The translations under genes and the position numbers were made by a program. The notes below the pieces were generated by a model. That model was not told the origin of the DNA. It worked only from the letters and a program-made list of their open reading frames with translations, and did not search any database. Below, piece by piece: positions 116 through 64,000 of a stretch of 64,000 bases of DNA. The stretch's first letter is position 1, and every line of letters starts with the position of its first letter. Origin of the DNA: Agarophyton chilense (lineage: Eukaryota > Rhodophyta > Florideophyceae > Gracilariales > Gracilariaceae); assembly GCA_030374765.1 (NCBI GenBank), contig JARGXX010000079.1, positions 434,001 to 498,000 on the forward strand, given 5' to 3'.

Positions 116-400
116 TGTAGTATTCTACTATGTCGGGGAATCCGATAGGTTGGTTTTTCGCGAAGTCGCGGTTGGAACTCATAAGTGAGTGATGTCATCA
201 AACTTGTGATATGAAACGGCACACCGCGTATGATGCCAGGAGGCAGGGTACATTGTTGGAACACGTGGCATCACGAGTGGAGTGGCTTGCAACGGCGCAT
301 GTACTGGCGATCCACGAGGCGGGTTTTACTACCCTTTGTAGATGTAAGTCCATTAGGGACCGTACCCATACAGTGGTTTCGCTAAGTGGCTGACCTGGGT

Positions 401-447
401 ATTATTTATATATTTATTTGAGCACTCACCCTGGCACACAGTATATA
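401..447 (+). promoter_or_regulatory. TATA-like stretches in the U3 part of the A LTR
   Basis: A T/A run (TTATATATTTATTT) and, 30 bases later, GTATATAG stand out in otherwise mixed sequence. The same motifs occur at the corresponding place in the 3' LTR and, on the other strand, in the solo LTR near 43.4 kb. They are plausible core promoter elements for sense transcription; no start site can be read from sequence alone. Confidence 0.4.
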
Positions 448-576
448 GTGCACCAGAGGTGAGCGCCGACTCCAAGTAAAGGAGACAACATGGGCATCAT
501 GACTATTCTGTTCCTCGCTTAGGATTCCTTAACCGGAGATCCGGACGAGCTATAATAGATAGTCAGCCCGCAACCA

Positions 577-752
577 CTTCACGAGCCGTCTCGTACCTAC
601 GCTCCATCAACGTTTTACAGTTGCACTGTTCACCCTCGCTGGCGAGTAGTCGCCTTACACCCCACTTCACGAGCCGTCTCGTACCTACGCTCCATCAACG
701 TTTTACAGTTGCACTGTTCACCCTCGCTGGCGAGTAGTCGCCTTACACCCCA
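577..752 (+). repeat. 88 bp tandem duplication inside the A LTR
   Basis: Two consecutive copies (577-664 and 665-752) begin CTTCACGAGCC and end ACACCCCA. The same doublet is in the 3' LTR (10729-10904). The solo LTR of the same family at 43075-43738 has a single copy, which explains its shorter length. Confidence 0.9.
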
Positions 753-868
753 CTTCCAGCTCGCTGGTGTTGTACCTCTACCACCCCTTTTCCTTCGCCG
801 CAAGCGACCCATCGGCAGTCCGAACGCTTTCGCAGGTGTCTGCTCTCTCCGTTAGAGCGGATACTACA

Positions 869-1083: not shown

Positions 1084-3237
1084 ATGCCGAAGACCCCAAG
1101 CCAGTCGAGTACTGGTCGCCCCGGTCCTGCGGGTCAACCCCCGAAGCCGAGGCTGGCCTCATCTATTGAAGCCGGAGAGCGGCTGTATCGTCAAGCGACG
1201 TCGCGCTCACGCTCGGTGAATGATGAACGAGATCTCTTGGATGTACGGGCCCCTGTGGCAGCGGCAGTCACGCCCACCACAGAAGCCGTAATTGACCCTG
1301 AGGTCGTCGGACCTCAAGAAGAGGATGATTTGCGCAGGGAAGTGCGTCGTCTCAAGTCTGAGTTAAGCGCTTCGCGTGTGCGCATGGTTGCGTTGGAATC
1401 GCAGATCGCTGCTCTTATCGCTGATGTCGAACACTTACGCAGTGCGCATCAAGCACTCGTTCGTCAAGACGATGGGAAGCAGGTCTCTGCATCAGTGAAA
1501 ACACTACGTGAGGATTTGAACCATCTACTGGAGAGGTACGGGAATACGCCCGATGTGCTACCTGGCTTAACCGTGGATGTAGAGGAAGTCCTTACTTGAG
1601 TCAACCCTCCTTTAGAACGCCTGGAGGCGGCAATTCATGCGCAGACTGCTGCTAAACCAGTCGTGCTGGAAGAGGAAGGAGCTCCTTTGGAGGAAGCTCG
1701 TTCGAAGAAGTCGAAGTCACGACGTAAGAAGCGGAAGTCCGCACGTGATTCGAGTGATGAATCGTCAAGTACGGAGGTTTTCAGTTCCAGTACTAATTAT
1801 TCTGATGATTCAGATACGTCAGATGACGACGACAGTGACGATGGTCATCGAAGGGCCCGATCTCGGAAGAAAAACACGTCTTCGTGGTTAATGAGAAAAA
1901 AAGTCTCACTTTACAGAGGATTGAAGGTGCTCACGTGCACGAATCCACTTTATCGGAAGGTCCTGAACTACAGGTACTACCGTCTGAAGGTGAAGAGCAA
2001 GAAGCGCTCAGGATGCGAAACCGCGAAGATAAAGGATCACATCAAACGATTGAAGATCGGCCTAAATGATTTAACATTTGATGGGAAAACCCCCATTCTC
2101 GTTATAGAGTTTCTCAATCGATTCGTTGCCGAAGCAGACACTCTAGAGATGAGTGAACCACAGGCATTTTTGTCTTTACCACACTTCCTGAAGGGTTTTG
2201 CTTTAGAGCAATATCGTTCCGTATGCGGATCATTGACAGCCGATGAAGGCGGCGTTACCTCATGGCCAGAGGCGGTGCAGTATTTGCTGCGCAGTTACTC
2301 GACTTCAAACGCGATACGTCAAGCGATCCTGGACCTAAGGGATGTGACCCAAAAGCCTGAGAAGGGCGAAGCTAAGTACAACTCAAGGCTTAACAAAGCT
2401 TCAGTCCGCTGTGGAAACGTCCACTCGACGGAGGACAAAACTACTTTGTACATCGATGGGCTGGACCAGAGCATCAAGTCATTAGTAGCTCGATATCGAG
2501 GGAAGCATGGAAGAGTCTCCTTTTTGGAGTTAGTCCAGTTTGCGAAAGCTGAAGGAGACGCGGTCAGAGCGCGTGGTAGCCCCCGTCGTTCAGTGGCTTT
2601 TGGAACCTCAATGGGTAAGGAGAAGATCTCCGCCACAATTATTCAGCGCAGCAAACTGCTACATCTGTAATCTCCAGTTGACTCGCGAGATTCTTCGTTG
2701 GCACCGAAAGGGAGTGACTCGCATGAGGAGGCGGTCCATTTAATGGAATATACGGACTCTTCTGTACCTACAGTAGATCTCCCACACTCGGAGTCTCAGG
2801 ACGAGGAAACCCTAATGGCTATGGAGGGCCGTCGCCCTATGTACCGCCCCTACACGGTGCCTCCACAAGGAGGTTTTAAGAACGGGAAACCCGGATGGGT
2901 GGATACTCGCACGGCATACCGTTCACAACCTATGTTGACCAACCGTCGTGACGGTTTGATATGTTATTCATGTTATGGAAAACACCATTTGAGTGCAGAA
3001 TGCACGCTTCCTGCAAAGGATCTGAGTCGTATCATGACGAATTATGAAGCACTCTCAGAAGAGGAAAGGAGCCGCGTACCGGCGGGCATGTATTGGAAAG
3101 CCAAAAGTTGGTTTTCTCAGACACCAATGCGCCGGACGGACAAGCAGGTTGTTCAGAATGCTGAAGTGTTACAACCCGGAACCCCTGTAGGAAGAGGCGC
3201 CTTTGAGGCGAATAAGCCGGTGCAACCGGAAAACTAA
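1084..3237 (+). pseudogene. gag: Element A gag polyprotein, broken by two stops
   Basis: One continuous frame of about 717 codons starts at ATG 1084 and is interrupted only by TGA at 1597-1599 and TAA at 2668-2670. The product would form the particle that packages element RNA. In order: a Ser/Pro-rich N-terminus, a probable coiled coil (about residues 79-126, rich in L, E and R), a Ser/Asp/Lys-rich spacer, a Ty3-type capsid-like region (nucleotides about 2040-2560), and a CCHC zinc knuckle (C-x2-C-x4-H-x4-C, around 2960-3003) for RNA binding. The same knuckle spacing is present in the D gag. A degraded relative of this gag lies at 28.3-29.5 kb. The start is the first ATG in frame after the leader. 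Confidence 0.85.
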
Positions 3238-3286: not shown

Positions 3287-6200
3287 CAGGGAGAGCTCGC
3301 CTCCCTGCTCCCGCGCTTGGAAGCCCAAGATTCTCTTGAGGCCTCAGAAATTTCCGCCGTACGGAATCAATCCGCCGGACGGAAAGCGAGTACAGTTTGA
3401 CTGTGAGTTACATCGTCCTTGGAGACGTGATACTTGCCCGTCAAAACGGGAAAGTTACCTCGTGGTAATGTCTAAAAGAAACTATAAGGTCTATGCCGAC
3501 ATCGGCTCTGACAGGAATCTGTTATCTCGTCGATTGACTATCCTGGACACAGGTGCTGGTCCGAACTTTATACGGGAATCGGAGCTCGCTCCTGCTGACT
3601 TAGAACGTATTCGCTACGGTCCTTTACTGGACATCCGGGATGCCAACAAAAATGCTGTGAAGACACTGCGAACAGTTCGACTCGTTGTGCGTTTGGGACG
3701 CTTTGTAGTCCTAGTCGACTTCATCGTCTGTAAGACGTTAGCTGCACCAGCGGTACCGGGATGTGATTGTTGCGACAATTTTGTCGAAGCCATTCGCCCG
3801 CGAAGAAAACTAGTGTAACTAGATGATGAATCAATGGTACCAATTGTTCGCAAGCCAATGCGTCGTTGCTCTGAAGCACCTCCCCTTCCACCATCTATGG
3901 TATACGGGAAATCCGGAGGACCTGTCTCGCCGAGGATTGGAGTAGCGAAGAGTGCCATGCTGAAGGCGCAAACCCAAACTTGGGTTCAAGTAAGAACAGA
4001 ACGACACGGACTCGCGGTAATTCAACCAAATACCCGGATGTACGAATCCCGTGGATTGCTAGTCGCCAACGACATTGTTCAGGTTGATCCTGGTAGCCCC
4101 TTTTGGATACTAGTGAGTAACTTCACCGATAACGATTGTCAGATACCGAAGAATCAGGTTGTTGCAACAGCTTTGCCTCATCCCACAGTGGTGGTACCTA
4201 CTCATATTTCTACTGCACACGTATTGGGATTAACCCATGTCGGTGACACAGACGAAGAACTACAAACTCCGTCTGGAGATCAATTGCAAACGGCAAAAGA
4301 TCCAGAGAGCCTGGTCGATGAGCTAGACTTAGCACATGTGTCGGAACACTACAGAACGAAGATCAGGTCTATGCTGAAGAAGTATACATCCATGTGGAGT
4401 GGAAAACTAGGAGAGATCTCCGCTACGGAACACCACATCGACTTGGTCCCAGGATCACGACCCATCTCCCAACCACCCTACAGAGCGGGACTGCGAACTC
4501 ACCAAATGGAGGAGGAGAATGTCAGCAAAATGCTGGAAGAAGGAGTAATCGAAGCAGCTCAATCTGCTTGGGCCTCACCAGTGGTGCTGGTTCCAAAACC
4601 AGATGGTTATTTACGATTTTGTATCGATTATCGAAATCTGAACGCAGTTACAGTTCGAGATACGTACCCGTTTCCTCGGACGGACGAATGTATTGACAGC
4701 TTAGGAGAGGCGAACGTGTTCATCACGTAGGACGCCCACTCTGGCTATTGGCAGGTGACTGTAGCGGAAGAAGACCAAGATAAAACCGCATTTGCGTGTC
4801 ACGCCGGTCACTACCGTTTCAAAAGGATGCTCTTTGGCTTAACGAATGCACCGGCTACTTTCCAGTGTACTCTGGACATCTTGCTCTCGAGATACAAGTG
4901 GAAGACTTGTTTAGTCTATTTGGACGATGTCATCATCTTTTCCCAGGATGTAGAAAGCCATTTACGGTATGTCGAGGAGATCCTCAAAGAACTACAGAGC
5001 GCAGGTATCACCTTGAAGTTCAAGAAATGCGAATGGTTCGCTGGCACCGTCCGGTACTTAGGACATGTGATCAAGCCGGGACAGCTTGCCATTCAAGAGG
5101 CACAAACAGCGGCTCTCCGCGAAGTACAACCTCCGTCGACACAGAAGCAATTGCGTTATTTCCTCGGCTTGTGCAACGTCTACCGACGATTCGTGCCGCG
5201 ATACTCGCATATAGCGGCACCGCTCAACGCAAAGCTGCATAAAGGACAACCAGTACAGCTGGAACAATTCAGACAAGCTGAAGCGGAAGCGTTCGACACG
5301 CTGAAGACAAAGATTATTACAGCCCCAGTCTTGGCGCTGCCCATCCCCAACCTGCCATACTCAGTGCATACCGACTCTAGCGAGTACCAAGTAGGGTGTG
5401 CCCTTTTTCAAACACACCCTGATGGTGAACCCAAACCCATTGGTTACTGGTCAAGATCGCTGAACGCAGCTGAGAAGAAGTATTCAGTTTCAGAAAAGGA
5501 ATGCTTTGCAGTCGTTTGGGCTCTAACCACATTGCGACCGTATCTCCAAGGAGAACGTTTTACCGTCAACACGGATCATTCGTCTCTACGATGGTTACTG
5601 TCCATTACAGACCCGTCTGGTCGTCTCACACGACGGCGCTTACGCCTTTCTGAATTCGATTTCGAAGTGAAGTATAAGAAGGGATTGGCCAATGTCCAAG
5701 CTGACGCGCTATCGCGACTCAAAACACTGTGCGAAACCCAAGGCGAAATCGATGAAGAGATACCTTGCTTCTACATGGAGACCCATTCACCATCTTTTGA
5801 AGAAGAGGAACAAGAGACACTTGATGATTATTCGGATGCAGACCCGTTCCTTGCATTAGCAGACACTGACCCTTCAGTTCAACTCGAGCGAATCTCTTGC
5901 ACTGAGCTCCTCAATGAGCAACACGCCGATACGTTTTGTGCGTCGATACGCTCTCGTCTTAACGGGGGGGAGGAGCTCCCCTTTTCACTCGATTCACGAG
6001 GAATACTGTTAAGACATGTCGAAAAGCATGATCAAATTGTGATTCCACACGTCTTGAAGAGTCGAGTACTCCATCTGGCACACTACAGCAGGCTGTCTGG
6101 TCATCCAGGAGGAACGAAGTTGTTCATGACTCTAAGAAGAGATTTTTACTGGCCTACTTTGGCCATGGACTGCCATGCTACAGTGAGGTTGTGTACAACG

Positions 6201-7985
6201 TGTGCCAAGAATCGCGTGAAGCTTGACAGGAAGCGGAAACCGATGACGTTATTCCAGGCGAAAGCGCCTTTACAATACGCCAGTATCGACATCCTAGGGG
6301 AATTGATTCGCTCAAGGCGAGGTTATCGCTACCTATTGGTAATCACCGACCGCTTCTAGAAGCTAGTGCGGACTGTGCCGCTGAAGCGGATAACCGCAAC
6401 CATAATCGCACAGGCGTTTATCAAAGACTGGGTATTTATATACGGACCACCAGAAGTTCTGTTATCAGATAATGGGAGGTAATTCCTTGCGAAGTTCTTT
6501 CAGAATGTTTGCCGCATTATGGGCATTCGAAACGTGTTTACTACTACCTATCATCCGCAATGAAACGGTCAGGTGGAGCGTTTCAACCGCACGCTGATCG
6601 CAGCATTACGACACTACATCGCAGACCACCCGAAAGCATGGGACATGTTTACAGATACTCTGTGCTACGCGTACAATACGCATGTGCATACCTCTACAAA
6701 GACGGCACCGTTCGACCTCGAGCTCTCACGTAACCCTCCGGCTTTACCGGTTGCGCTGGACGACGAGACAGAATTGGACGCGCCGACCCCGGCTAAGTAC
6801 CATCTGAAATGGAGGAATGACCTGAAGGCCAGAGCGGAAGAAGCGGTTAAGGAGTTATCAAAGACGCAAGCTCGCTATAAGTGAAACTATGACGCCAGAA
6901 GGCGAAGAGGAAATCCGGCAATCCGAGTAGGAGGTCCCGCCTTCGTGCGAGTTGAAAGACCGGACAAACAGGAAGAATCTCGTCATAAGTTGTTGCCGAT
7001 AGCGGCTGGGCCCTTCAAAGTAATGGACCTTGACGAAGACACAGTGGTCATCAAGACAGGTGAGGATGTTGAACGTGTATCGCGCGATCACGTTGAAGTC
7101 GCGCCTGACCCGCAAGTGGAAGTCCAGGTATCTGGTAGTACTAAGGAGGCAAGTGCGACGCAACGTCAAGGCAAAAGCCCAAGTGACTCTGAAGAGAGTG
7201 AACCGCCACCAATGGCTCGAGCGGAGGAGAAAGCTCCTGATCTCTCACCGCCGGCTGTTTCGTACGACAATCACGAACAGCTTCCGAAGTATCGGGATAT
7301 GCCCCGTGGCACGCGCACACCCGTAAACACAGAAACGGAACCTGAAAGCAGGAAAGATGTTTTGGAATTTGGCCCCAACGACGTGGAAACGAGTGCACGC
7401 GAAAAAGCGCCGTTGCCGCTTCAGGCTGAACCGTCCGGTGAAGCTCCACTCGCTGTTCCGCCGATATCGGCTCCCATCCCTCGTCGGCAGGAAGAAGAAG
7501 AGGTATCGCCTCCTGTCGTGGTGCAAGCACCATCGTCCACCCATCAGCGGTCAGAATCGGATAAACCGAAGGACGTTCATCCACGAATGGAATTGAGAAG
7601 TAGCAAGAAGTACGCTTCTATGGAACCTGGAAAACAGGATAGCTCTTTATCTGAGAAGGGTTCTCAAGGAATGAGTACACTGCCCCTGCGGGCAGAACGA
7701 CAGTTAGTCGACGAGCGAACGCTTTGCGACGCTGAGACTGCTAACACAGAGACGCTTGGGTCAGCCATAAGGTATTTCAAACATGTTAACAGGAGTCTCG
7801 CGCCAACAACGAAAGAATTGGGAAACGCCCAGAAATATGTTATGGATCGCATATGTGAACATGGCGAGCATGAAGATACTAGAGAATTACTGTATCGAGT
7901 CCGTTGGTACGGTTTTCCTCCGGAAGCGGATACGTGGGAACCTATAGCTCATATCCCCCGTTCGCAACTCGTGCGATATCATTGA
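3238..7985 (+). pseudogene. pol: Element A pol: protease, RT, RNase H, integrase, chromodomain
   Basis: A single frame carries all of pol. It has six in-frame stops (3816-3818, 4728-4730, 6357-6359, 6480-6482, 6561-6563, 6882-6884) and no frameshift. Visible landmarks: retropepsin LDTGAGPN (about 3543), RT YLDD (about 4918), RNase H TDSSEYQVG (about 5368), integrase zinc region H/H/C/C (about 6075-6210), integrase acidic residues near 6286, 6467 and 6576, and a C-terminal chromodomain (about 7835-7982) with RVRWYGF and DTWEP. The last 300 codons before the chromodomain are Pro/Glu/Ser-rich and look disordered. The product would copy the RNA and insert the DNA. This copy cannot make it. Confidence 0.9.
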
Positions 7986-8578
7986 TGCATGCGATTACCA
8001 CTCCCCAGAGAGATTGACTCCTCGATTGTCGGGCTCATGGGCACATCCCATCTCTAAGTATGGGCTACAAAGGTAGTAAAAACTCGAAAGGCGAGAAGAA
8101 AACAAGAATTCATGTGGAAGAAACGTGAAAACACGCATGCACAGGACATTTACTGATTATCACCTAGGACAAACTCGAGAAGCGAGAAGAAGGATTCAAG
8201 AACTCGAGAAGCGAGAAGAGATGATTGAAGAACTCGAGAAGCGAGAAGGGAAGTATGAAACTCGAGAAGCGGGAAGAAGAAGTTAAGAACTCGAGAAGCG
8301 AGAAGAGATGAAGACTAGAAGATAAGAAGGGGACGTGAAGACACGAAGTCACCGGAGTTTTATTGGTATCAAGATACCACCGCAAGGGTGTTGACTAGGA
8401 GGCTTTTCTAGGATCATCAAAGAGACGTGCGAGCACGCAGATTCGCAAGAAGCTGTGCGCGATCACTCTCAACTTGGTCCACGGGAAAGCCCGCGTCTAA
8501 GAGGAACTGCCTCAGCGGATCCAAGCCTGGATCTTCGACCGGCACTGCACTCGGTTGTTGGGTAAACCCATGAAATTA
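7986..8578 (+). repeat. GA-rich spacer with 29 bp tandem repeats between pol and the antisense gene
   Basis: No gene here. Five units beginning AACTCGAGAAGCGAGAAG start at 8172, 8201, 8231, 8259 and 8288 (spacing 28-30), with a degenerate unit at 8081. The pol-sense strand is strongly purine-rich. Element D has a corresponding polypurine/polypyrimidine stretch (57.8-58.0 kb), but without such a clear repeat unit. Confidence 0.85.
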
Positions 8579-10246
8579 CTATTGAGCAACTCCCGCCGCT
8601 GCGGATCGATCGACGGAAGTCGCTACGCCTGCCAGCTCTGGCTCGTCCTCGTAACCGAGTTCAGCCTCAGCTCCCAGCGCTTCCTCATACGGTTCCTCTC
8701 CGTTCTCGGATGGAGTGACGTCGTACACGTATCCAGTATGCTGGTTCGGTGGCATGTCACGCGGGTTCTCCCGAAGAAAGCGAGCCTGCTCGGAGGTGAT
8801 CAACTGGCGCGTCCTGGGGTCGCACCAAACGAAATCTCCAGCACTTGCTGTTCGCCCAGGAGATTGGTCGTAGTGTCCTGCACGGGTTTTGCGAGCGGAT
8901 TGATCAGCTGGCACTCCAGACCAATCGACACGGTCGATCAAATCCACAAGATGGAGGAAGTCGGCATGGTTCGCACGGGATCCCAGGATAAGGGAAAGAT
9001 CGAGTTCTCTCGCATACTTTCGCGCTGTTGGCGGCATGTACCAAACTCTAAAGGTATCATAAGCATCCAACAGGAGGAAGAGGGCCAACTTGGCGATAAA
9101 CTCGGTATAGACCACCGTCTAATATCCCGAGAACGGGTCGTTAACCAACGCGGACCCGATGTAGGAGATCCCCGGTGGGAGCTCCACAGGGCAACCACGA
9201 GGACTCTCGATCGCCGCCCAATGCTCCGGAATACCGATGTAGCGCCCGAAGCGCGCGTTCCGCCGGATGCGGTCAATCTCGATCATTTGATACGGCACCA
9301 AATAGCCCAAACGTGATCGAGTACGACGTTCCCAAAGGGGATATTCCCAATACGGAATGTCCCGCTTTCGAAGGAAGCGGAACTCCGCACGGAGAAGAGG
9401 TTTCTGAAAGCAGATAGCTGCATCACGCACACCGCGCACACCGCGCCAACCGCTAACATAGACTTCAACGAGTGCCTCGATATACGATTAACCTTCACCG
9501 TCGGTACGGGCTTTCCAGATATCTAGTTCCCAGTCCTGCCGGAAGAGAACCGTACTGATGAATCGGTGAAGACGCTGGTAAATCAGCTTGGTGAACCGCG
9601 TACGGGCTTCGGACAAGGTTTCCGTTGAATATCGCGCAATCGCGTTGTCTGGCAAAGCGATATGGCTCGCCCAGTTGTCGCTATGAATCGCGTGTTTCGG
9701 AATACCGTCAGGGAAGTACCCTCCGTGTACATACTGTTGTATCAACGTGTCATCGCGGATAGCAACTGGATCAAACCAGGGCGCTTGCGCGAAAAGTTCA
9801 AAGTTGTCGAGAGGATTTCGTCCATAGAAATTTTCAGGGTGCGGCTAGCTCCGCTGAGCACGACTAAAAGGAGCTAGAATCACACCCGCAGAGACGACGT
9901 AAGCCGCGTTCGGCATCGGAGCCACGGTGGGCTGAGGTAACGGTACCGACCGGAATCCGGTGTACGGTGTAGAGAACGAACGGTATGGACCGAGATGAGC
10001 AGTAGGCTGCGACGCATAACCAGCAGTGTTGGACGGAGCTTCAGAAGGCACATCCTCAGAGGAGGGCTGAAACGGGTTGGACCCGGCGTTCGGATTCATC
10101 GCGAGAGATCGAGGTGAAGAGCGGTGGGGAACAGAATGCTGTTGAGAACTGTAAGAGTTGGTCGGGCGGCGAAGAATTCGTGATGACGATGTGTACCCGG
10201 AACGCCGGTCCGACTGCGTATAAACGCTTCTTGCGTCGCCCATCAT
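8579..10246 (-). pseudogene. Antisense gene of element A (unknown function), three in-frame stops
   Basis: A frame of 556 codons starts at ATG 10246, only 22 bases from the 3' LTR, and runs toward pol. It is interrupted by TAG (9845-9847), TAA (9488-9490) and TAG (9116-9118), all in the same frame and without indels. The protein aligns with the antisense product of D (55921-57776) over most of its length: a Ser/Thr/Pro-rich N-terminus, a region ending RDDTLIQQYVHGG, a basic segment with LRAEFRFL and LVPY, NDPFSGY, an aromatic stretch (FRVWYMPP), SPGR, then an acidic tail. D has Trp where this copy has the last TAG. I recognise no known domain, and it is not a retroviral env, having no signal peptide or membrane anchor. 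The role is unknown. Confidence 0.8.
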
Positions 10247-10254
10247 TTGCGCTT

Positions 10255-10267
10255 AACGAGGGGGGTA
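10255..10267 (+). promoter_or_regulatory. Polypurine tract of element A
   Basis: AACGAGGGGGGTA lies directly before the 3' LTR, in the position where plus-strand DNA synthesis is primed in LTR elements. Confidence 0.75.
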
Positions 10268-11020
10268 TGTAGTATTCTATTATGTCGGGGAATCCGATAG
10301 GTTGGTTTTTCGCGAAGTCGCGGTTGGAACTCATAAGTGAGTGATGTCATCAAAATTGTGATATGAAACGGCACACCGCGTATGATGCCAGGAGGCAGGG
10401 TACATTGTTGGAACACGTGGCATCACGAGTGGAGTGGCTTGCAACGGCGCATGTACTGGCGATCCACGAGGCGGGTTTTACTACCCTTTGTAGATGTAAG
10501 TCCATTAGGGACCGTACCCATACAGTGGTTTCGCTAAGTGGCTGACCTGGGTATTATTTATATATTTATTTGAGCACTCACCCTGGCACACAGTATATAG
10601 TGCACCAGAAGTGAGCGCCGACTCCAAGTAAAGGAGACAACATGGGCATCATGACTATTCTGTTCCTCGCTTAGGATTCCTTAACCGGAGATCCGGACGA
10701 GCTATAATAGATAGTCAGCCCGCAACCACTTCACGAGCCGTCTCGTACCTACGCTCCATCAACGTTTTACAGTTGCACTGTTCACCCTCGCTGGCGAGTA
10801 GTCGCCTTACACCCCACTTCACGAGCCGTCTCGTACCTACGCTCCATCAACGTTTTACAGTTGCACTGTTCACCCTCGCTGGCGAGTAGTCGCCTTACAC
10901 CCCACTTCCAGCTCGCTGGTGTTGTACCTCTACCACCCCTTTTCCTTCGCCGCAAGCGACCCATCGGCAGTCCGAACGCTGTCGCAGGTGTCTGCTCTCT
11001 CCGTTAGAGCGGATACTACA
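10268..11020 (+). repeat. 3' LTR of element A (753 bp)
   Basis: Same length as the 5' LTR, with four substitutions and no indel. It is followed by the target duplication GTTGT at 11021-11025. Its left end lies 22 bases from the start codon of the minus-strand gene, so it is the likely source of any antisense promoter. Confidence 0.95.
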
Positions 11021-14862: not shown

Positions 14863-15035
14863 GGAAGACCCGGGACGCTCTCAAGATCGGATGCCGTCCC
14901 GGGGCACGCACGTTTGAGATACAAGAACGACCTTGGGAAAGCACAAGCATTTAATTCATTTGACAACTAACAGGGGTAGAGCAGCCCTCACCATGACCTC
15001 AAGGTTCGAGGAAGCGCTCGGAACACCAATAGGAC

Positions 15036-34966: not shown

Positions 34967-35163
34967 GGTCAGTCCTTCGGAGACACCTCAGGAAGACCCG
35001 AAACGCTCTCAAGAATGAACGCTGTACAGGGGCACGCACGTTTGAGATACAAGAACGACCTTTGGAAAGCACAAGCATTAATTTATTCGACTAACTAGCA
35101 GAAATATAACAGCTCTCACCATGACCTCAAGGTCCTTGGAAGCGCTCGGAACACCAACAGGAC

Positions 35164-46949: not shown

Positions 46950-47003
46950 GATATATCTTTGCCCGCAAAGCTTTCCGGACCTGTGTTTGCTTGACCGAGC
47001 AGG

Positions 47004-47825
47004 ATGTCCGATCTTGATCCTGACCATGATGGGCAGAACCCGACTAAGGACAACGATGTGGTCTTGACCAAAAATCAGACCATCGTCGATACGATCAAAG
47101 CGCCTCGACTCCGTGACGTTACTTACTTGCATTTTATCAAGTTCAAGAAAGCACGTGAGAATTACGAGCGCGAAGTTCTCGAGAAGAACAAAGACCCAGG
47201 TGTAAACATCACCCTTGCAAGCTATGCAACGTCGGTCGACCACAATGTGCTAGAGCAGTTCATCGACAGACAGTACATCCAGCGCGAATCCGTTGCCGAT
47301 GTGACGGAGGAGGACTTGCTCGACTGCATCAATCGTCGGTGCGAACGTCCCAAGGGGGAGTTCGAACTCAGCGATGTCGAGAAGGCAATCAAGTCCGTCC
47401 GCTTGGATATGAGTATCCTCGGGGCAGAACCTGGCATCGATACGCTAGTGCTCGCCTACAAGCGCGCACTGGAGGCATCTGGGTATAGCAACTTCACACG
47501 AGAGTGCCCCAAGATTGCCATTGGACACATCCACGACCGTCTGAAGCCGTCCATCCTGAAAGACATGATGGAAGATGAGTTCGAGAAACAACACAGTAAG
47601 GGGCTCCACAAAAAGGACTTCAGATACTTTATCTCAGAACTCGTCAGACTCGCGGAGATCGTGGAGAAGACCAGCTCTCGACGCGGTCACTCGCACGGTG
47701 ATAAGGATGGAAAGAAACCTGATCGAAAAAACGGCAGAAGAGACAAGCCTTCAGGGAAGGAAGGTAAGAGTGGACGGAATAACAAACGTACCGAACGACC
47801 CGCTCCGCTCTGCTTGTACCATTAG
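47004..47825 (+). CDS. gag: Element E gag (273 residues) ending at an in-frame TAG
   Basis: Starts at ATG 47004, 54 bases after the LTR. It has an acidic/helical N-terminal part, the capsid-like middle (LLDCINRRCERPKGEF, FTRECPKIAIGHIH, FRYFISELVRLAEIV), then a long Lys/Arg-rich tail. The frame ends LCLYH-TAG, and the same frame continues CKAKSIHHMLRDC, so the stop falls inside what looks like a CCHC-type knuckle. Either the stop is a mutation or gag-pol is made by occasional read-through of TAG. Confidence 0.8.
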   Translation: MSDLDPDHDGQNPTKDNDVVLTKNQTIVDTIKAPRLRDVTYLHFIKFKKARENYEREVLEKNKDPGVNITLASYATSVDHNVLEQFIDRQYIQRESVADVTEEDLLDCINRRCERPKGEFELSDVEKAIKSVRLDMSILGAEPGIDTLVLAYKRALEASGYSNFTRECPKIAIGHIHDRLKPSILKDMMEDEFEKQHSKGLHKKDFRYFISELVRLAEIVEKTSSRRGHSHGDKDGKKPDRKNGRRDKPSGKEGKSGRNNKRTERPAPLCLYH

Positions 47826-51703: not shown

Positions 51704-51733
51704 AATCTGGAACCGATCCGAACTCATGGGCTG

Positions 51734-52212
51734 TGTAGCACATATGCGGATCCGCCTTATGATACGGAATGAATCTTTCATTGGTGTACCACCTTCAGAC
51801 TACGTACTCTTAAGCCCGAACGGGCTAGAACGAATAGTGCTGACAAGCTCGAATCTTTCATTGGTGTACCACCTTCAGCCTACGTACTCTTAAGCCCGAA
51901 CGGGCTAGAACGAATGGTGCTGACAACCTCCACGGAGTTCCCGCGGAATCCGGGAAAGGGCAAGTTGGTGTCACCGAGGAAGTGTGCGAGAAGAAGAGGA
52001 GAAGGAGCAATTCACGTACTACGCGTAAGCTCACCTCCTCTGCTTGTTCTTGGCCTGAACGGCCGAGTTAAGCTCATCACTGTGTATAACTACCCCAGCT
52101 ATTGGGGTCCAATAAAGACACAGCGATCACGACTACACAAACAACAACTCTATTGCCAACCACCTCATCCTCCTTTACCCAAACTCAGACTCACTTCCCT
52201 AAAGTTACTACA
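51734..52212 (+). repeat. 3' LTR of element E (479 bp) with an 80 bp internal duplication
   Basis: Starts TGTAGCACATATGCGG, ends TTACTACA. An 80 bp unit is present twice in tandem (51771-51850 and 51851-51930); the 5' LTR has one. The first unit carries private substitutions. This accounts for nearly all of the length difference. Confidence 0.9.
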
Positions 52213-53999: not shown

Positions 54000-55839
54000 T
54001 GCGTACTCTATAGGACAACGCTTGGAGCGGAGACACCACGAAGATGTTCGGTATCTTCCTCTTTTGAGAGACACGCCTCAGGCGGAGGAGACGCGTCTCA
54101 GCGAAGCACAGAAACAGAGCCACTCTGGAAAGGCACGACGAAGTCGGGTGTAAGACCGAGGCCAATCCGGCGGGATATACCTAGAGTGTTTAGGTGAGCA
54201 CGGCACAGTCCGGGGTGTTACCAATCCTAGACGCAGCGGTATCACGGCGATTGTCGGAAAAGGAGCGAGGAAACACTCGTATGAGGGGGGCGAGCGGGGT
54301 GCGTGAGGCGGCCACTCACGAGAGCCAAAAAGGAGAACAAGAGGAAAACGGGGGCGAAACCCTATACAGGGGCGATACTACGACAAGTGTCGGCGATTAA
54401 ATATGAACTAACGGTGGTGGTAGCACTCTGGTCGACAGAGAGGTGGATGAACTAACGTGCAACGGGCGCTCACGCAGTATGCGGTGAAGACGCACCGAAG
54501 GCGAAAAGTTCAGGGCCAAGACTCCCTCCTTGGGATCTCCCAAGAGGGTGTTTACTGGGGAGCGGTGCTCAACCTCCTAAGTAGTGTGGCGCGCGGCCCC
54601 TGACAGTGGGCGCGCGCCCGAAAAATAGACACTAAATAGCGATAGCGTAGCTAAATAAATACTAAAAATTACTAAATAATACTAACCATTATATAGAATC
54701 CGGGCCACGTGTGACACGCCTCGCACTCGAGCGTCGGCATCCGTGCAGTCCACGTGTTCCACCAGTGTGCACTTCCGGTCCTAACCGGCCATCAGAACGC
54801 AATAGCGGTATAGCTTGTCATAGACCAAGCTAGTCCTCAAGCGAGCGAAATCTCTAAGTCCTGGGAAGAAACCTTGAAGCATTTTCCTTCATACTCTTGA
54901 ACGTCAAACAGAATAAGGTGACATCTGTGGAGCAAAACCCGGCGACGGGAAGTGCTCTCAAGGTGTTCGAAGCCTTGCTCCCTGGGCGAGGCAGACTCAG
55001 AGACAGAGCCCTCCGTTCCACCCGTAGTGTGGGCTGTAACTCCCACGGGGGATTCCGGCAGTACCGACGGAGGTGAGGGGTAGAAACCGTTGGATCGGGA
55101 ATGGGTATGGGTATCCCAAAGAATGGGGGAAAATCCGGCGAAGAGGAAAAGCGGGGCGAGGGTCGGGCACTAACAGGCACCAGACCCGAGAACCAGAAAA
55201 GGGGCAAAACAACAAAAGAAACCCAATACAGGGGCGAAAACCTGTCCTCGAAAGGAAACACAAAAAGCACGCAACAAGTAAGCAGAACCCCCACGGGGTA
55301 TCGTGCACGCAGGTCGTCTGAGCGGTCCAAAGGGGGTGGTTGCACGGAACCCAAACGTGAGCACTCTCCAAGTGGAGTCGTGTCCCTACGCAGGCGTTGC
55401 TAACCAGAGCCCGTTCCGGGTTGTAAGGCCGAAACGATGGCGACGAAGAACCTCTAAAGGTATCGAAGACCAACCTTGGTTCTCACTTACTCTGAGCTCG
55501 GACTGTCAGATCTCGCCTCCCTAAGTAGGGCCCACTAACTAAACTCTACAGTAGTGCACACCTGCTCAGGGCCATACACGTGGAGATCCCACTGCCAGGG
55601 CCGAAAAATCCAACGTTCTAACAAATATCCGAAATTCGGTGGCAAAATTAAGCCACGTGTATCACGGGGCCAATCCAACCATGGGCCATCCGAATTTTCC
55701 CTTATAGGCGAAATATAACCAGAAAACAGTGCCACCTCAGCACACGTTAGAGGGGATCATAATCATAACCCTCGGAGGGTTCAATCCTCATTCTATGAGT
55801 TGCATCTTCAAGTATCCCCTGACTGGGCGTTGCTCTACA
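54000..55839 (-). repeat. 3' LTR of element D (left limit uncertain)
   Basis: The right end is well set: on the minus strand a polypurine tract is followed by TGTAGAGCAACG. The left end is inferred only from the composition change near 54.0 kb; no partner LTR is in the window. A TATA-like CTATATAATGG lies on the minus strand near 54690. Confidence 0.45.
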
Positions 55840-55840
55840 T

Positions 55841-55854
55841 CTCCCCCTCTTTAA
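55841..55854 (-). promoter_or_regulatory. Polypurine tract of element D
   Basis: On the minus strand AAAGAGGGGGAG lies directly before the LTR start TGTAGAG. Confidence 0.7.
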
Positions 55855-55920
55855 GACGAGGAAGAACATTCCGAGCCGCGGTTGTCTAACTTTCCGATCA
55901 CTATACATACTTCTTTCCCA

Positions 55921-57776
55921 ATGGGGTCCTTCACCACTTCTGAGGATCGCCACAAAACCGGCACATCGGTACAACTTTCTTCTACTCCTCCGACTTTCGG
56001 CGATAAGCAACTTCTCGCAACAGCGGTTTCGACTAGCCCTCTCAAGGGAATGAACCCGTACGTCATCAACCCACTCTCGGGGCCATCGGCCTCCGCGCCG
56101 GCGGACAACGAAGCTCCCCAGCAGGGTGGATATTTCTCCGGTTTGGATGCGGCTCCGTCAGGTACCGATTCTTCCGCCTCGGCGGGCAACCGACATCCTC
56201 AGGAGGATTTGGACATCAACGCGGTGGCGTGGAACTCCGCTCATGCGATGCCCTTGGTAGCAAACTCCAGAGGTTGGATCTCAAACGAATCCTTTCGAAG
56301 GTGGAGTCCCCTTACCGATCCGGTGATATATTCCCGCGCTCCGCGGTTCCATCCGACAGCGGTTCGCGACGATGAGCTCATCGACTCCTACGTGGAGGAC
56401 GGCTTATTGCCGGGTGGCCTACCTGTTGAGGTTGTACGTTCTCCCGATTGGAGGGCGCGGGTAGCCATAGAGCCTCAGTATTTATACCGCAGTCGCGGGG
56501 AATCCTGGACAAGGGGCGCGCAGCGATGGCGGCTCTGGCCTACCAGCGATTGGAGAGGTCACGCTTTGACCATCTGGTTCCCCCGGAGTACGGGTTCGAC
56601 GTCGCCTATTACTGCACGTACGGTGAGGTCTCCTACGGGGATAACCTGGCAGCCTTTCCAGAAGCCGAGTTCCGCGGACCGGGTTTTCCTCTCCGAGAAG
56701 ATATGCTCAAATGGAGTCGTCCCATCCTTCGGGCTGAATTCAGGTACCTTCAGCGGCAGTTTACCCAATATGGGTTCGATCGACGCGTGCGCTTCGAGCG
56801 CCGCTCGCGCTCCCGTTTCGGGATCCTGGTCCCGTATCCTCACGTGGAACTGGAGCGTATCCGTAACACGGCGAAGGTTGGGCGATTCGTGCCCCTTCCA
56901 GCTTGGTGGAGTAAGGTCGAGGTCCCCCGAGGGTGCTTTGCTGAACTGCCCCCATGTATCTACTATTTCGCGTCTCGTTTGATGCACGACCCTAACTCGG
57001 GATACTGGGCCCTCGTTGCAGCCGAGTGGTCAGCCCGCGTAGCGGCGCATCTCCTCTGGGATGCTCATGACCATTTCCGTATCTGGTATATTCCTCCGAT
57101 GCTACGGACCATCATGCGTCAGATCGACCTTGTCCCAGCGTTGGGTTCGGCCAGCAACGTGCAGGACCTGTATCCAATCTTGGACGTGATCGACAACACC
57201 CAATGGGATCGAGTTCCAGTGGCAAATCAGCCCGCAGGGGAAGGATCCGCGCGAGACAATTCTCCTGGCCGGTACGATCCAGGCTCCGGTAACTGGGTCT
57301 ATGACAATCCCTTCGAAGGGGTTCGCATCAGCGTGGCGCAAGCACGGGCGCTGATTGACTCGCCTCGACCGATGCCGGTGGGACACCCGACGGGGTTCAT
57401 TTATACCGACGAATACGAGTACGAGCCTCCAGTAGACCTGGACGATCCAGCGTTGGATAACGAAGTGCCAGCTCCTAGTGGAGTACTCCCTGTGGAGCCA
57501 TCTGCACCCTTCCAACCAGTGGGAACGACCTCAGCTGCAGCGGCGAATGCATCCGGTGGCGGTCCATCTGCTCCCCCCGGGTGGGGTGTGAACACCCTTG
57601 CGCAGGCGCCGGTTGCCACTCCGCAAGCGGATAGTGTGCGACAAGGCCTCGTGAACGCAGGCATTCCGATTCCCCCGGGTATGACGGATGTGATCCAGAT
57701 GTTGGCTTTCGCCTCGGCGTACCATCAGGGTCAGAATCCCAACGGTGGGGCGGGTCCCTCCTCGGGCTTTCCGTAG
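55921..57776 (+). CDS. Antisense gene of element D (unknown function), one frame slip
   Basis: Starts at ATG 55921, 82 bases from the 3' LTR, and runs toward pol; about 617 residues if a one-base slip near 56490-56505 is allowed. The slip is placed by alignment with the A copy, where the same region is continuous. Segments in order: Ser/Pro-rich N-terminus, RDDELIDSYVEDGLLP, RFDHLVPPEYGF, ILRAEFRYLQRQF, RSRFGILVPYPHVELERI, HDPNSGYW, HFRIWYIPP, DVIDNTQWDRVP, SPGRYDPGSGNWVYDNP, then a long Pro/Ala/Gly-rich tail ending SSGFP. No known domain, signal peptide or membrane segment. The conserved middle with aromatic and basic residues suggests a folded nucleic-acid- or protein-binding core; that is inference. 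Confidence 0.75.
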
Positions 57777-58165
57777 TTCCGCCTTCGGGCAATTGTAGAG
57801 TCCATAGCTTGGCGACAATAGTAAACTTCTGATAATTGCATAACTTCTTTTCTTCTTCCTTCCTAGGATCTTAACTTCTACTTCATCTTCTTCATTCCTT
57901 CTTAGGATCTTCTTCATCTTCTTCCCTTCCTAGGGTCCAATCTTCTTCTTAATCTTCTTCTCCACTTCGTGGGTCTTCTTTTCCTTTTTCATTATAAACT
58001 GTCCCGATAACCGGTGTTGTGTTCCCCGGTTAACGGCGCTAGGCCGAGGGCCAGTAAAAATTCCCTCTCAATACGTGTTCTTCGGGATACTCTCCTCAAT
58101 TTCTCTTCAGAGGTCTAACATCTTCCTCACTTCGAGGTCGCATCCACACCAGTTCCCGTGGTGGC
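57777..58165. other. CT-rich (pol-sense GA-rich) spacer between the two convergent genes of D
   Basis: No gene. Between 57840 and 57980 CTTCTT and TTCCTAGGATCTT blocks recur, so the pol-sense strand is purine-rich. Same position as the 29 bp GA repeats of A. Confidence 0.7.
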
Positions 58166-58456
58166 TTACCCGACTTGGGCACGATCCAGATTTGGAGGCA
58201 AGGTTACCCGAGCGCGTCGGTGATAGGATAAAACCTTAGACCTCGGAGGGTGCTCAATGGGTTCCACTGTATCCTCATCAGGCGAGAATCCGTACCATCG
58301 GACTTGGTAGCGAACTTCTCCCTCGGGGGTGTAGATGTGACGCACGATGCGATCGATAACGAATTCCTGCGGGTACACTTTTCCCTGTTCGGGCTTTTCT
58401 TCCATCTTGGAACGCTCTAGTTCCCTTGAGGGTGTCAACGTAGGGTCTAGACACAC
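58166..58456 (-). pseudogene. Element D chromodomain
   Basis: In the same frame as the rest of D pol but separated from it by about 550 bp. FVIDRIVRHIYTPEGEVRYQ, VRWYGFSPDEDTVEP and RSKVLSYH align with the A chromodomain. The conserved Trp of DTWEP, which helps bind the methylated histone tail, is Val here (ACA-GTG against ACG-TGG in A), so binding may be lost. Confidence 0.8.
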
Positions 58457-59005
58457 CCCGGTGGGTTCTTTTCCGTGTTGCGAGCGGGTCTCAGCACTTC
58501 GTCCAAACGGCGCCGAGTGGCCTGTGGGCTACGTTGTAACTTCCGTCTACCGAGTCAAAACAGCCCAGTTTTGGGTTCTTCTTAAAGCTAAAATCTTTCC
58601 GATAACAACAGTTTTCTTAGATTCCGTGACGGTTGAGAAACCGCGACGCGGTAGCGTCTCCAATCTCAGGGGGGTAAGACTTCAACGTCAACCCGAGCTA
58701 CGGGGACGAAGGTTGCTCTTGTGCAACGCGCCGTGCGACAGAGGCGGTTTGCGCGACGGTTGGTCGTCAGAGCCTTTTGATTGGCTCGGTGAGGCGGGTT
58801 GCGCGACGGTTGGTCGTCAGAGCCTTTTGATTGGCTCGGTGCCATTCGACGTGGGCCACATAAATGCGCGGGCGCCGGTTGCCACTCCACAAGCGGATAT
58901 GAGGTGGCGCTTTAGGCACGCGCTAGCACTCTCCTGAGCTGTCCCCGACGGGTCTCACTCATTTCTTTCCCATTCCTGAGGGTTCCAGTGTCTCCATAGG
59001 AGTTC
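58457..59005. repeat. Disrupting segment between pol and chromodomain of D, with 50 bp tandem repeat
   Basis: Bases 58741-58840 are two 50 bp copies (unit GAGGCGG(T/G)TTGCGCGACGG... to GGCTCGGT). Bases 58869-58897 repeat the antisense gene around 57604-57632 (GGCGCCGGTTGCCACTCC...). The segment also ends the main pol frame at 59006. Confidence 0.7.
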
Positions 59006-62000
59006 CTATTCCCATCCCATGACGGAGAGCCAAATTTGGTCAACCTCGTCGTCGATATCTTCCCCGTGCGGGTTCGCTGACACAACTCGTTCCCGAGAAA
59101 GCGGGGTTTGAGTGTGCGACACCTCAGTGTCTCTTCCGCGGCGGCGGGTGATCGTCAGCTCTGTAGGCGTTCCGGGTGCGGAGTTCTCCACACGACTCTC
59201 CCTAGGCGGGTTTTCGTCATCTTTTCTGACGTCGTGCTCGGCTGGGTCGGTGGTGATGTCGCTACCCATACGCTGGGGTTGTGACTTCTCTGTCGCCGGC
59301 TCGGTCGGGCTCGCCGTCTCACTGTGAGAACTAGATTCCCTGTTAGGGCGACTGGCTGACGCCGAAACATCGTCCTGCGAAGGAACTAAGTCCTCCTCCC
59401 CCTCCTTAGGCGGAGAGCCAGGAGGCTTGATTACCTCCGGTGGGGGAGTAACTCTGTAAGAGTTCGTTGGCTGGGCCCTTGAGGGAGCGGGCCCAGGTTC
59501 GGGAGTATCCGAAGTTTCCGGTAGGTCGGTTAAACCACGTTCCGGGTGCGGAAGTATAACGGGGCGGGTGTTCGAATCTCCGCCTGACGGGTTAACTTCC
59601 GTTGAATCATCCCCTGTGGAGGGCGTTGGTGCCGACACCACTTCCACATTTGGGTTGGGCGCTCGTGTGATGCGGTCTCTGTAGATCCGTTCGTGGCGGT
59701 TAGCGATATCCAATACCACCGTGTCCGGGTCTACAGAAACCACCCGATAGCGTCCGTCCACAATTGGCGAAAGCTTGTGCCTACGTTCCTTTTCAGGATT
59801 GTAGTATTCCTTTCGAAGGAAGACGAAGTCGTCGGGCTCCACCTGAGGTAGAGGTTTGCGAACCCGATTGTCAAAGTCCTTCTTGTAGGCGCGTTGAGCT
59901 TTGTCCATTGCTTTCCGGGCTATCGGCACCATCTTCGTAAGCCACTCCTTCCAGGCTTCTCGGTACAATCCCGGTGACGGGTACGTCGACAGCGTCGGTT
60001 GAGCCTCGATGGCGACCGGCGGCGGTGTCCTCGACAGTACCAGTTCGAATGGGGATAAAGATGTAACCCGATGTACCTGGGTGTTGTATGCATACGTGAT
60101 AGCGTCTGTGTACAAGTCCCAGTTTTTGGGGTGATCCGCAACATACGATCTCAAAGCGTTGAGTATCGTGCGGTTAAACCTCTCCACCTGGCCATTCCCC
60201 TGAGGGTGATACGTAGTAACAAATAAATTCCTTACATCAAGGATTCGACATACATCTTGAAAGAACTTTGATGCAAATTGCCCTCCGTTGTCGGATAACA
60301 ACTGCACCGGCGGTCCATATACGAACACCCAATGGGTCACGAACGCTTGCGCGACGGTAGCGGCGGTGATCCGCTTCAGCGGCACAGTTCTCGTTAGCTT
60401 AGAGAATCTGTCAGAAATGACAAGCAGATACCGATGACCTCGGGGCGTCCTGATAAACTCCCCTAGGATGTCTATGGCTACGAATTCGAGTGGAGCCCGT
60501 GCCGGGAACAGCGTCAACTTCTTAGAGTGCTTCCGAAGTTTGACGTCATTCTTGGCGCAATTGGCGCAGGCCCGTCTGACGGCGTAACAATCGAATGCCA
60601 TTGCCGGCCAGTAAAAGTCCCTTCTCAACGTGAGGTACAGTTCTCTTCCCCCGGGGTGGGCGCCAACCTTCACATAGTGAGTGAGGTGTAATACCCTCTG
60701 TTGTAGGGTATGCGGCACCACTATCCTCGGGCGAGGTCCAACGGTCCTGATTAGGTAACCCTGATCGTCGTCCTCGAAAGGTAACTGAAATCCTCCGTTG
60801 AGGCGAGCCCGAATCCGTGTACAGAATGGGTCGAGCTGTTGCTCGCGTATCATCTCCTCTGGAGAGATAGGTATAAAAGAGCCGGTCGGCGAATCCAGAC
60901 TCTCGTTGACGAGTATATCGTAACAAACATCATCCGTCAGCGGTTGAGCTCCTCCCTCGAGGTCCGATACCATAAAGCATGGGATGTCATCGTCCTCGTA
61001 GGGGTCCGTTTCCGCTGTTGTTCCCAAGCGGGATAGTGCATCAGCCTGAGTGTTCAGCTTCCCTTTCTTATACAGGATCTCAAAGTCGAATTCCGACAGT
61101 CGGAGACGCCAGCGCATAAGGAGGCGGCCCGAGGGTTCGGAGATCTCCAGGAGCCAACGAAAGCATGCGTGGTCCGTATGGACTTTGAAACGAGTACCCA
61201 TCAGATAGGGGCGAAGTGTAGCTAAGGCCCACACAACGGCTAAACATTCTTTCTCGGAGACCGAGTAGTTCCTTTCATGGACATTCAGGGAACGTGACCA
61301 GTACCCAATAGGGTGACGTTCACCATCCTTAGAGGATTGGAACAGTGCACACCCTACTTGGTTTGCACTAGCATCGGTGTCCACTTCGTAAGGGAGCCCA
61401 GGATTGGGTAGAGCCAAGATTGGCGGTGATGTTACGGCATTCACCAGTGCCGTGAAGGCATACGCTTCCGCGTCGCCAAAAGGTTCCAGTTCAACTGGTT
61501 GTCCCTTCGTCAGGAGCCTGTTGAGGGGGGTGGCAATATCCGCAAAGTTCGGGACGAATCGGCGATACACGTTACATAGACCTAAGAACGATCGCAACTC
61601 CGTTTGAGTTTTCGGGTGTTTTGCTTCCTTCAAGGATTTCACTCGTACTTCATCGATTGAAAGCTGTCCGGGACGGATGATATGACCCAGATACTTAACC
61701 GAATCGGTGAAAAACTCGCACTTCTTGAGTTTCAAGGTGATTCCCGCGTTGCGGAGTATCTTCATTACGTCCCTGACGTGTTCGAGGTGGTCATCCAGGT
61801 TGTTGGAGAAGACAATAATGTCGTCTAAATACACTAGACACGTCCTCCACTTGAAGGGAGCCAACAGAATGTCTATCGCCCGTTGAAACGTTGCGGGGGC
61901 ATTTGTCAACCCAAAAGGCATCCTCCGGAATCGGAAAAGTCCTTGATGACACACGAAAGCCGTTTTGTCTCGATCTTCCTCCCTAATAGGGACTTGCCAG

Positions 62001-63541
62001 TAGCCCGAATTGGCGTCGAGGGTAGAGAACACAGTAGCGCTCCCAAAGGAGTCGATGTATTCGTCCATCCGAGGGATCGGATACACATCCTTAATGGTTA
62101 CCTCGTTCAGGCGTCTGTAATCGATGCAGAAACGCCACGATCCATCCGGTTTCGGAACTTACACCACTGGTGAGGCCCAAGCGGACTGGGCAGGTTCAAT
62201 TACGCCCGCTTTAAGCATCTTCTCCACCTGAGATTTCTCCTCATCCCGAGCTTTCGGTCCAGCCCTGTAAGGGTGTTGGGCAATAGGCCGAGTGTTCGGT
62301 AACAAGTCGATGCGGTGTTCTGTAATCCCAATAGTTCCAAGGGAACCATCCCACATGGGGGTAAATTCACGAAGCATGTGCCTCAGCTTCTCCCGATAAG
62401 ATGCGGGTACATGGTTGAGATCCCATTTCTCCAATTCCTGAACAGGATCCGTCTGGTCTGCTCCTGTGATAGGGGCCGTAACCTCCTGAGGTTTAAAGTG
62501 TTCAGCGTGTGGAGCTGCAGTTGTATGCTCACCGTCTTCCGCGATTTCGGCAGTGTCCTCCCCCTCCTTAGGGTCCGCCATACCAAGGACCTCTGCGATA
62601 GAGATCTTTGTAGGTACGACCGCATGCGGGTGTGGAAGAACAGAACCCAGGATCTGGTGTTTGACCAAATGCTGCGTTGTCTTTCCAAAGTTGGCTACCA
62701 AAACCTTGAAAGGTTTATCCGGTTCCACGGAGACAACCCCATTCGCAAGGGCTTGTTGACGCCGCGTATACAGAGACGGGTTCGGTTGTACCACATGCAC
62801 ACCAATTTGCTTGGTAACAACTGTGACCCAAACCTGGGTTTCTGGCGGGATAGCCACTGACTTCGCAACCTTTACCCGTGTAGACACCGGATCCTTCTTC
62901 ACAGATTCCTGCGCGACGGGGAGAGGAACGCGTGTTCGCGCTGTTCCCTGTAAGGGTTTACGAACGATTGAGATCGTAGACCCGTCTTCGAGTTCCACAG
63001 TTCTACTCCGAGGACGGATGGCTTCCACGAAGCGGTCGCAAAAGTCACAACCCAGTATGACTGGTGCTGCAAGTGACTTGCATACAATAAACTCCAGTTG
63101 GACGAGATAGGAGCCTAACCTCACCATGAGGGAAATTGTACCCAGTGTCCGTAGCGGGTTGTTGTTCGCATCGGCGATATCCAAACGTGGACCGGTACGA
63201 ACTTGGACCCGGAGCAGCAGGGGTAACAATTCCACATGAATTAAGTTAGGAGCGGCTCCTGTATCCAGGACAGATATTTGACGAACCATAAACTGGTTGG
63301 ACAGGCCGAAGTCGGCGAATACTTTATAATTCCGCTTGGCCATTACCATAACTCGATCCGGAATACGGAGATTACGGGACCGTATCCACGGGCGACGGAG
63401 GACATTAAAGTATCCCGAGTTAACGTCGGTGTCAGCCGTTTTACTTGAAAGGATAGTCACAGCTGGGGAGCGAAGCTGGAGCGCCTCGGGCGTCTTCAAC
63501 TCCGGCTTAGAAGACGCCCCTCCCGCAGGGGAGACTCCCAA
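59006..63541 (-). pseudogene. pol: Element D pol: protease, RT, RNase H, integrase (one in-frame TAA)
   Basis: One frame with a single stop (TAA, 62156-62158) inside RT between SPVV and VPKPDG. Protease SVLDTGAAPN near 63275-63250. Counting from 62086: YLDD at residues 86-89, RNase H DTDAS about 236-240 to ADALSRL about 348, integrase zinc region about 467-510 (H, H, CANC), catalytic D539, D599 and E635 (D-x59-D-x35-E), then the C-terminal domain and a long Pro/Ser/Glu-rich tail. The product would carry out processing, reverse transcription and insertion. Apart from the one TAA, all catalytic residues are present, so it decayed recently or the stop is an isolated mutation. Confidence 0.9.
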
Positions 63542-63557
63542 GTTTAGTTTTTCGAAG
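63488..63557 (-). promoter_or_regulatory. Candidate -1 frameshift signal at the gag-pol junction of D
   Basis: On the minus strand gag ends TCG-AAA-AAC-TAA and pol is open in the -1 frame across the same bases. A perfect 10 bp stem (63510-63519 with 63488-63497) with a 12 nt loop lies about 26 bases downstream, with a smaller CTCCC/GGGAG hairpin between. The G-AAA-AAC context is one base away from the canonical A-AAA-AAC. Confidence 0.6.
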
Positions 63558-64000
63558 CGGACCCCACCGAATTCGGTGCAGCTGCCTCGAAGGGGACCGG
63601 TTGTTCCCCGTTCGCGGGTACAAGTTCTGTATCCCTGTCAGCAAGGTGAGCTCGGAGTATCCTTTGTTCCTCATAGGACCTACTCGGGACTCGAGCTTTC
63701 TCCTCAGGGGTCAGAGCCTCGTACTGAGCGATAATTCGTGAACCCTCCCGCAGGGGAAATGTGCAGTCTGGTGCTTTGTGACCACGGAGGTAACACAAAT
63801 AGCAAATCAGCTCTGCCGGGTTCGGTTGTGGACGTGAATCCACGCGACGTGGTGCTGTATCCCTCCATCCGGGGCGAGAGAACCGAGCAGCGGTATTCGC
63901 AAAGGGTAGAGATGCGGCTGGCACCCTCCGTCTGTGGGTATAGAGCGCAGGGTCTTCATCCGTAGTCGGAGCGGATGTCGACGGCAACTCAGACGTACCC
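63544..64000 (-). CDS. gag: Element D gag, C-terminal part (continues beyond the window)
   Basis: Open to the window edge. Contains the zinc knuckle ICYLCYLRGHKAPDC (C-x2-C-x4-H-x4-C) followed by a conserved ALTPEEKARVPSRSY segment matching ALSEEERSRVPAGMY in A, then a short tail ending SVGSASKN. It would bind element RNA during packaging. Confidence 0.85.
   Translation of the reverse strand, partial: GTSELPSTSAPTTDEDPALYTHRRRVPAASLPFANTAARFSRPGWRDTAPRRVDSRPQPNPAELICYLCYLRGHKAPDCTFPLREGSRIIAQYEALTPEEKARVPSRSYEEQRILRAHLADRDTELVPANGEQPVPFEAAAPNSVGSASKN

Follow-up and report, generated by a model that had tools for sequence, protein, structure and literature searches.

Antisense accessory genes in LTR elements come from flowering plants and some animal retroviruses in the portions of two papers drawn on here (PMC7264820; PMC11963269). 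According to the same portions, Grande of maize (gene23), RIRE2 of rice, PvRetro13, and Retand have an antisense ORF between pol and the 3' LTR (PMC7264820; PMC11963269). The antisense ORF of Retand carries a Transposase_28 domain (TRP28, PF04195) in all but two clusters; in the sections cited, this domain is said to be confined to flowering plants and the Retand lineage is described as non-chromovirus (PMC11963269). Antisense genes of HTLV are mentioned in the cited portions of both papers (PMC11963269; PMC7264820), and in those of one, plant LTR elements are said to carry env-like ORFs in sense orientation, again in the interval from pol to the 3' LTR (PMC7264820).

Here we analyzed a window of 64,000 nucleotides from the genome of the red alga Agarophyton chilense (the whole stretch of DNA, in contig C79 of a 79.76-Mb assembly of 135 contigs), in which two Ty3 elements, A and D, carry a long frame opposite to gag-pol. 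A search of this genome gave nine matches to light-harvesting proteins. To our knowledge, antisense accessory genes in LTR elements have been described from flowering plants and some animal retroviruses. Among the latter, HBZ of HTLV-1 is a bZIP protein and trans-acting regulator whose antisense gene is transcribed from a 3' LTR promoter.

Two elements with a gene opposite to gag-pol

Element A is framed by a 5' LTR (116..868, plus strand), with GTTGT directly before it, and a 3' LTR (10268..11020, plus strand; TGTAGT...ACTACA), followed by the 5-bp target duplication GTTGT. Between them lie gag (1600..2670, plus strand; Retrotrans_gag, E 2e-6) and a pol in broken frames (3819..7985, plus strand), in which Pfam detects reverse transcriptase (RT), RNase H, an integrase zinc domain, and a chromodomain; positions 3819-4730 align with the gag/protease region of D. 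The chromodomain (PF00385, E 1.1e-7, residues 318-360 of the frame at 6885-7982) bears out the original assignment of A to the chromoviruses. The antisense gene runs on the minus strand (8420..10246) and has 608 codons in open copies found elsewhere in the genome. The frame first noted at 10246-8579 exists; it is interrupted in the window copy by three stop codons, and the homologous reading extends beyond it to ~8420. Its start codon is separated from the 3' LTR by a leader of 21 bases (10247..10267) that includes a purine-rich tract. Element A is itself nested in another repeated element (window 1-115 and 11018-15530, with a copy at 31116-35659), with the GTTGT duplication flanking it.

Element D lies in the opposite orientation. 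The window holds the C-terminal part of its gag (62159..63637, minus strand; a weak protease match, E 0.031, falls below the cut-off), pol with RT, RNase H, and integrase (59006..62158, minus strand), and a 3' LTR of ~915 bp (54926..55840, minus strand) whose boundaries were taken from the limits of the repeat in other copies. The antisense gene occupies 55921..57776 on the plus strand. Its full frame of 618 codons is open elsewhere in the genome; the predicted frame is present in the window copy, split by a one-base deletion near 56503 so that one frame runs to ~56503 and another beyond. The start codon lies 80 bases from the inner end of the 3' LTR (55840), across a leader (55841..55920) whose purine-rich tract is by position the polypurine tract. 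In both elements, this tract sits where it is expected, right before the 3' LTR, and the measured start-to-LTR distances of 21 (A) and 80 (D) bases are close to the 22 and 82 first given. D had also been called a chromovirus. Pfam found no chromodomain at the integrase C-terminus in either D pol searched, that of the window and that of the copy L051, so this part of the prediction is not supported; the RT/RNase H pieces of D are 58% identical to those of A. Antisense gene and pol had been described as ending tail to tail; the orientation is as described, with a spacer intervening, of ~0.4-0.6 kb in A and ~1.2 kb in D (57777..59005).

Both spacers contain short tandem repeats of ~50 bp, at 8171-8311 in A and at 58741-58841 in D, where the unit is 51 bp. 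A short piece of the antisense gene, from its 3' end (APVATPQAD), recurs in the D spacer at 58866-58898. The sequence directly before the start codon divides the D copies into two types (L041 889-985; L051 901-967), in which the stop-to-stop frames around the same methionine are 650 and 640 codons long, suggesting two subfamilies that differ at the LTR junction. One 10-kb stretch of a D copy (L044, reverse strand coordinates 6853-8370) has tandem partial LTRs of ~914 and 604 bp. Another element in the window, C (46551-52201), is a complete Ty3 element with a chromodomain match slightly under the Pfam cut-off (E 3e-5); ~30 bases separate its pol stop from its 3' LTR, and an antisense gene is absent, indicating that the gene is not universal among the Ty3 elements of this genome.

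Conservation, linkage, and selection

The antisense proteins of A and D align in order, as first noted, with 36% identity over 414 amino acids (E 3e-60) and a second, N-terminal stretch of 32% over 81 amino acids. A shuffled-sequence control had been named beforehand as a refuting test, and the alignment survived it: an open A copy against an open D copy scored 269 bits, and 200 shuffles of the A protein reached at most 29.3 bits. When an open A copy was compared with an open D copy, identity at codon positions 1/2/3 of the core was 52/61/30%. The next-best A-D frame was the mirrored frame on the opposite strand (132 bits), and because this frame shares its wobble position with the antisense frame, the codon-position pattern alone cannot fix the strand. 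The mirrored frame, however, is full of stops: every one of 11 D copies has 19-23 of them, and two A copies have 29-30. This identifies the antisense frame as the coding one. From these sequence comparisons, we conclude that the antisense frame codes for a protein and that this protein is conserved between the diverged A and D families.

Twelve database proteins are homologous to it (P0002 and P0003-P0013), so the further homologs that the prediction called for exist. P0003-P0006, P0008, and P0009 are from A. chilense and 56-89% identical to the A-type antisense protein; the remaining six (P0002, P0007, and P0010-P0013) come from ENA or 'lgn' sources. Judged by these homologs, the protein family is not confined to elements A and D of A. 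chilense. In the core, P0002 is 55% identical to D and the other relatives are 32-40% identical to it. A tree of the core pairs D with P0002 (100/100) and groups A with P0007 and the proteins from A. chilense; P0010-P0013 branch deeply, with a less firm placement. Across nine distinct rows, 72 alignment columns agree in eight rows or more, mostly in the core, and the proteins diverge outside it. The genome also holds a third, A-related subfamily, 67-79% identical to P0009, residues 1-363 of which match the genome at 100% (C88:2924699-2925778). The six A. chilense entries are public gene models ('unnamed protein product') that represent antisense genes of transposons, complete or fragmentary. 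One of them, P0006, starts within LTR-like sequence, and we considered this as a sign of an LTR-started transcript; we rejected it, as P0006 is a gene model.

We then searched the assembly for further copies. There are at least 150 A-type antisense copies. For D, the search returned 1917 candidate places, and 59 of the best-scoring 94 had no stop in the matched stretch, a list biased towards good copies because it is the best-scoring part of the candidates. From the stop-free rows of these 94, we drew 15 stretches of 10 kb, and 11 of them contained the whole 618-codon frame from the same start. In three others (L046, L048, and L053), residues 1-618 aligned in one piece and the exact start key was absent; in the last (L042), the frame was cut by the end of the fetched stretch.

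We measured linkage between the antisense gene and the rest of D by comparing 80 listed pol places (one split match being counted once) with 112 listed antisense places, the best 94 plus 18 more. Thirty-five pol places had an antisense place within 12 kb. In 34 of these 35, it lay convergent on the opposite strand, 2.70-2.93 kb from the RT piece; in the single exception, it was 10.4 kb away. The other 45 of the 80 had no partner among the antisense places listed; as both lists comprise the best-scoring places, this does not imply absence. Thus, in D, the antisense gene belongs to the mobile element; for A, the gene layout was observed in the window copy alone. Paired LTR pieces were 96.1-99.6% identical in five D copies, indicating that D is fairly young.

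The prediction had named a dN/dS near 1 as counting against a functional gene, and here the two families gave different answers. Among 11 open D copies, the pooled dN/dS was 0.40, not near-neutral. The mirrored frame gave 0.45, because its wobble position is the same, and the remaining four frames gave 1.04-1.20. Variants common to at least two D copies are mostly older than the insertion. In the 11 copies, shared variants fell on codon positions 1/2/3 as 8/6/23 and singletons as 48/50/60 (shared variants against the singleton share, binomial p 0.0025). In a larger set of 18 copies (the window copy, two others, and 15 that had been picked for having no stop in the matched stretch), the counts were 14/11/28 for shared variants and 72/72/89 for singletons. 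For the shared variants, p was 0.003 when compared with one third and 0.021 when compared with the share among singletons; a 2x2 test of shared and singleton variants gave 0.07. D pol behaved similarly to the antisense gene (shared variants 9/5/26, p 0.0007, 14 copies). We saw no codon-position signal in the D spacer (15/25/20, 17 copies) and no third-position excess in D gag (9/7/12, 15 copies). Thirty A-type copies showed no clear bias (variants shared by at least three copies 30/18/30, singletons 221/238/234, p 0.13); A looks like an older burst decaying near-neutrally, and its pattern offers no support for selection. Taken by codon, these comparisons point to purifying selection on the antisense gene that is strong between A and D and moderate within D.

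The protein and its possible role

The prediction knew of no described family with the motifs of this protein, and the domain and fold libraries agree. Pfam gave no match at its cut-off across 16 members (best E 0.029); NCBIfam gave nothing better than E 0.042, PHROGs nothing better than E 0.18, and a sequence search of the PDB found no relative (best E 0.77). A fold search with a structure model found no match, capsid-like folds included; as the model is of medium confidence, a fold may have been missed. Profile comparison with the elements' own gag, for which the profile comprised two sequences, found no similarity. Neither Transposase_28 (PF04195) nor bZIP matched any of the 16 members at E<=1 in Pfam. 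In the A. chilense genome, PF04195 has no match above the cut-off; a single weak one (20.2 against 26.2 bits, C115:1611170-1611286) is not among the antisense places listed. A literature search, mostly at title and abstract level, found no description of this antisense protein family.

The maximum 19-residue hydropathy ranged from 0.93 to 1.86 in 13 proteins and was below 1.6 in 11 of them; with no strong hydrophobic stretch in these 11 on this measure, an env-like role seems less likely. Eleven of the 13 are acidic (pI 4.9-6.4), and nuclear-signal-like clusters are few. A conserved basic patch with a net charge of +1 to +8 across 48-50 residues is found in all 16 members, the core has a conserved arginine-rich patch (ERRxRSRxGxLVPYxxIE), and the tail is acidic in 15 of 16. 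In the structure model, the core is mostly helical. The model and these properties suggest a soluble, intracellular protein with a probably disordered N-terminus, a helical core of ~350 residues, and then a usually acidic tail; basic patch and acidic tail would fit a regulator that binds a partner or RNA, although they do not prove one.

We lean towards the view that the antisense gene is an accessory gene of one red-algal Ty3 lineage, that its transcription is driven by the 3' LTR, and that its product benefits the element in trans. Transcription would start within the 3' LTR, at its U3 end, on the minus strand of the element, and the RNA would cover the antisense gene and terminate before pol. 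We place the start in the LTR because only 21 bases, purine tract included, separate LTR and start codon in A: any antisense RNA of A with a leader longer than this must begin in the LTR, an argument from geometry and not from a promoter assay. The trans-acting protein would then have the RNA or chromatin of the element as its target, with the nucleus as the most likely place of action, and by analogy with what has been proposed for other antisense accessory proteins, it may raise the element's expression or export. Nucleic-acid binding and nuclear action draw on the basic patch and on analogy, given that 11 of 13 proteins are acidic and nuclear-signal-like clusters few. LTR-driven transcription and control of the element or its particles, the roles first suggested for the gene, are plausible. 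A bolder form of this reading, to which we give an even chance, is that an ancient protein family, folded in a way not previously observed, is the defining accessory gene of a red-algal Ty3 lineage and is expressed from an antisense promoter that lies within the 3' LTR. It would then represent independent evolution of the kind of trans-acting antisense regulator found in retroviruses and Retand.

The same gene could instead work in the cytoplasm, in particle assembly, as a structural partner of gag, or in limiting copy number through gag interference. A mostly helical core, as in many structural proteins, and the acidity of most members are in keeping with such work, but the lack of profile similarity to the two-sequence gag profile and of any capsid-like fold is not, and self-limitation fits poorly with a high-copy family; we consider this fairly unlikely. 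Somewhat less likely still is a suppressor of host silencing, by RNA interference or at chromatin. Convergent transcription would give double-stranded RNA at the 3' end of the element and so a need for such a suppressor, and the convergent gene layout, high copy number, many open copies, and divergence outside the core are as it would have them; against it, the protein resembles no family in the libraries searched. The gene might also be a passenger, captured from a host or virus and hitch-hiking without benefit to the element, and element C in the same window, which has no room for such a gene, is compatible with a capture. A passenger would, however, decay over the divergence between A and D, and here the gene shows signs of selection in D and is present in families whose RT pieces have diverged as far as given above, making this reading improbable. 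Finally, antisense non-coding RNAs are known in other retroelements, in the portions of the source cited (PMC7264820), but an RNA that matters in itself, with the open frame incidental, is strongly contradicted by protein conservation, namely the codon-position pattern, the many copies in which the frame of 618 codons is open, and homologs that are 32-55% identical in the core, and we hold it to be very improbable.

Comparison with known systems

If the bolder form of the trans-acting accessory gene is correct, an ancient undescribed family with an LTR antisense promoter exists in a group of eukaryotes where our searches found no such gene described. D offers a high-copy, fairly recently amplified system in a seaweed with a public genome, in which minus-strand transcription can be checked directly. 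For annotation, it follows that six or more of the 'unnamed' gene models of A. chilense are antisense genes of transposons, whole or in part.

Like Retand, the A and D elements have an antisense ORF between pol and the 3' LTR and a long pol-LTR region with tandem repeats, in the account given by the portions of the papers cited (PMC11963269; PMC7264820), where such repeats are reported in about half of Retand elements; both A and D spacers have theirs. Unlike Retand, they reside in a red-algal host, A has a chromodomain, and no PF04195 match was found. The likeness to HTLV-1 HBZ and related retroviral genes is that of an antisense gene adjoining the 3' LTR, with an LTR promoter and a trans-acting protein that are here inferred; the difference is that the 16 members searched have no bZIP match. 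With the sense env-like ORFs of plants, they share an additional gene between pol and the 3' LTR, but it is on the opposite strand and, in 11 of 13 members, has no strong hydrophobic stretch. Finding a second antisense protein family in red algae, one that has no Transposase_28 match yet occupies the equivalent site and strand, suggests that such a placement and orientation have been favored repeatedly. Genes of this general kind are known; A and D add to them a protein family that is new and, for the familiar site, a host group that is new as well.
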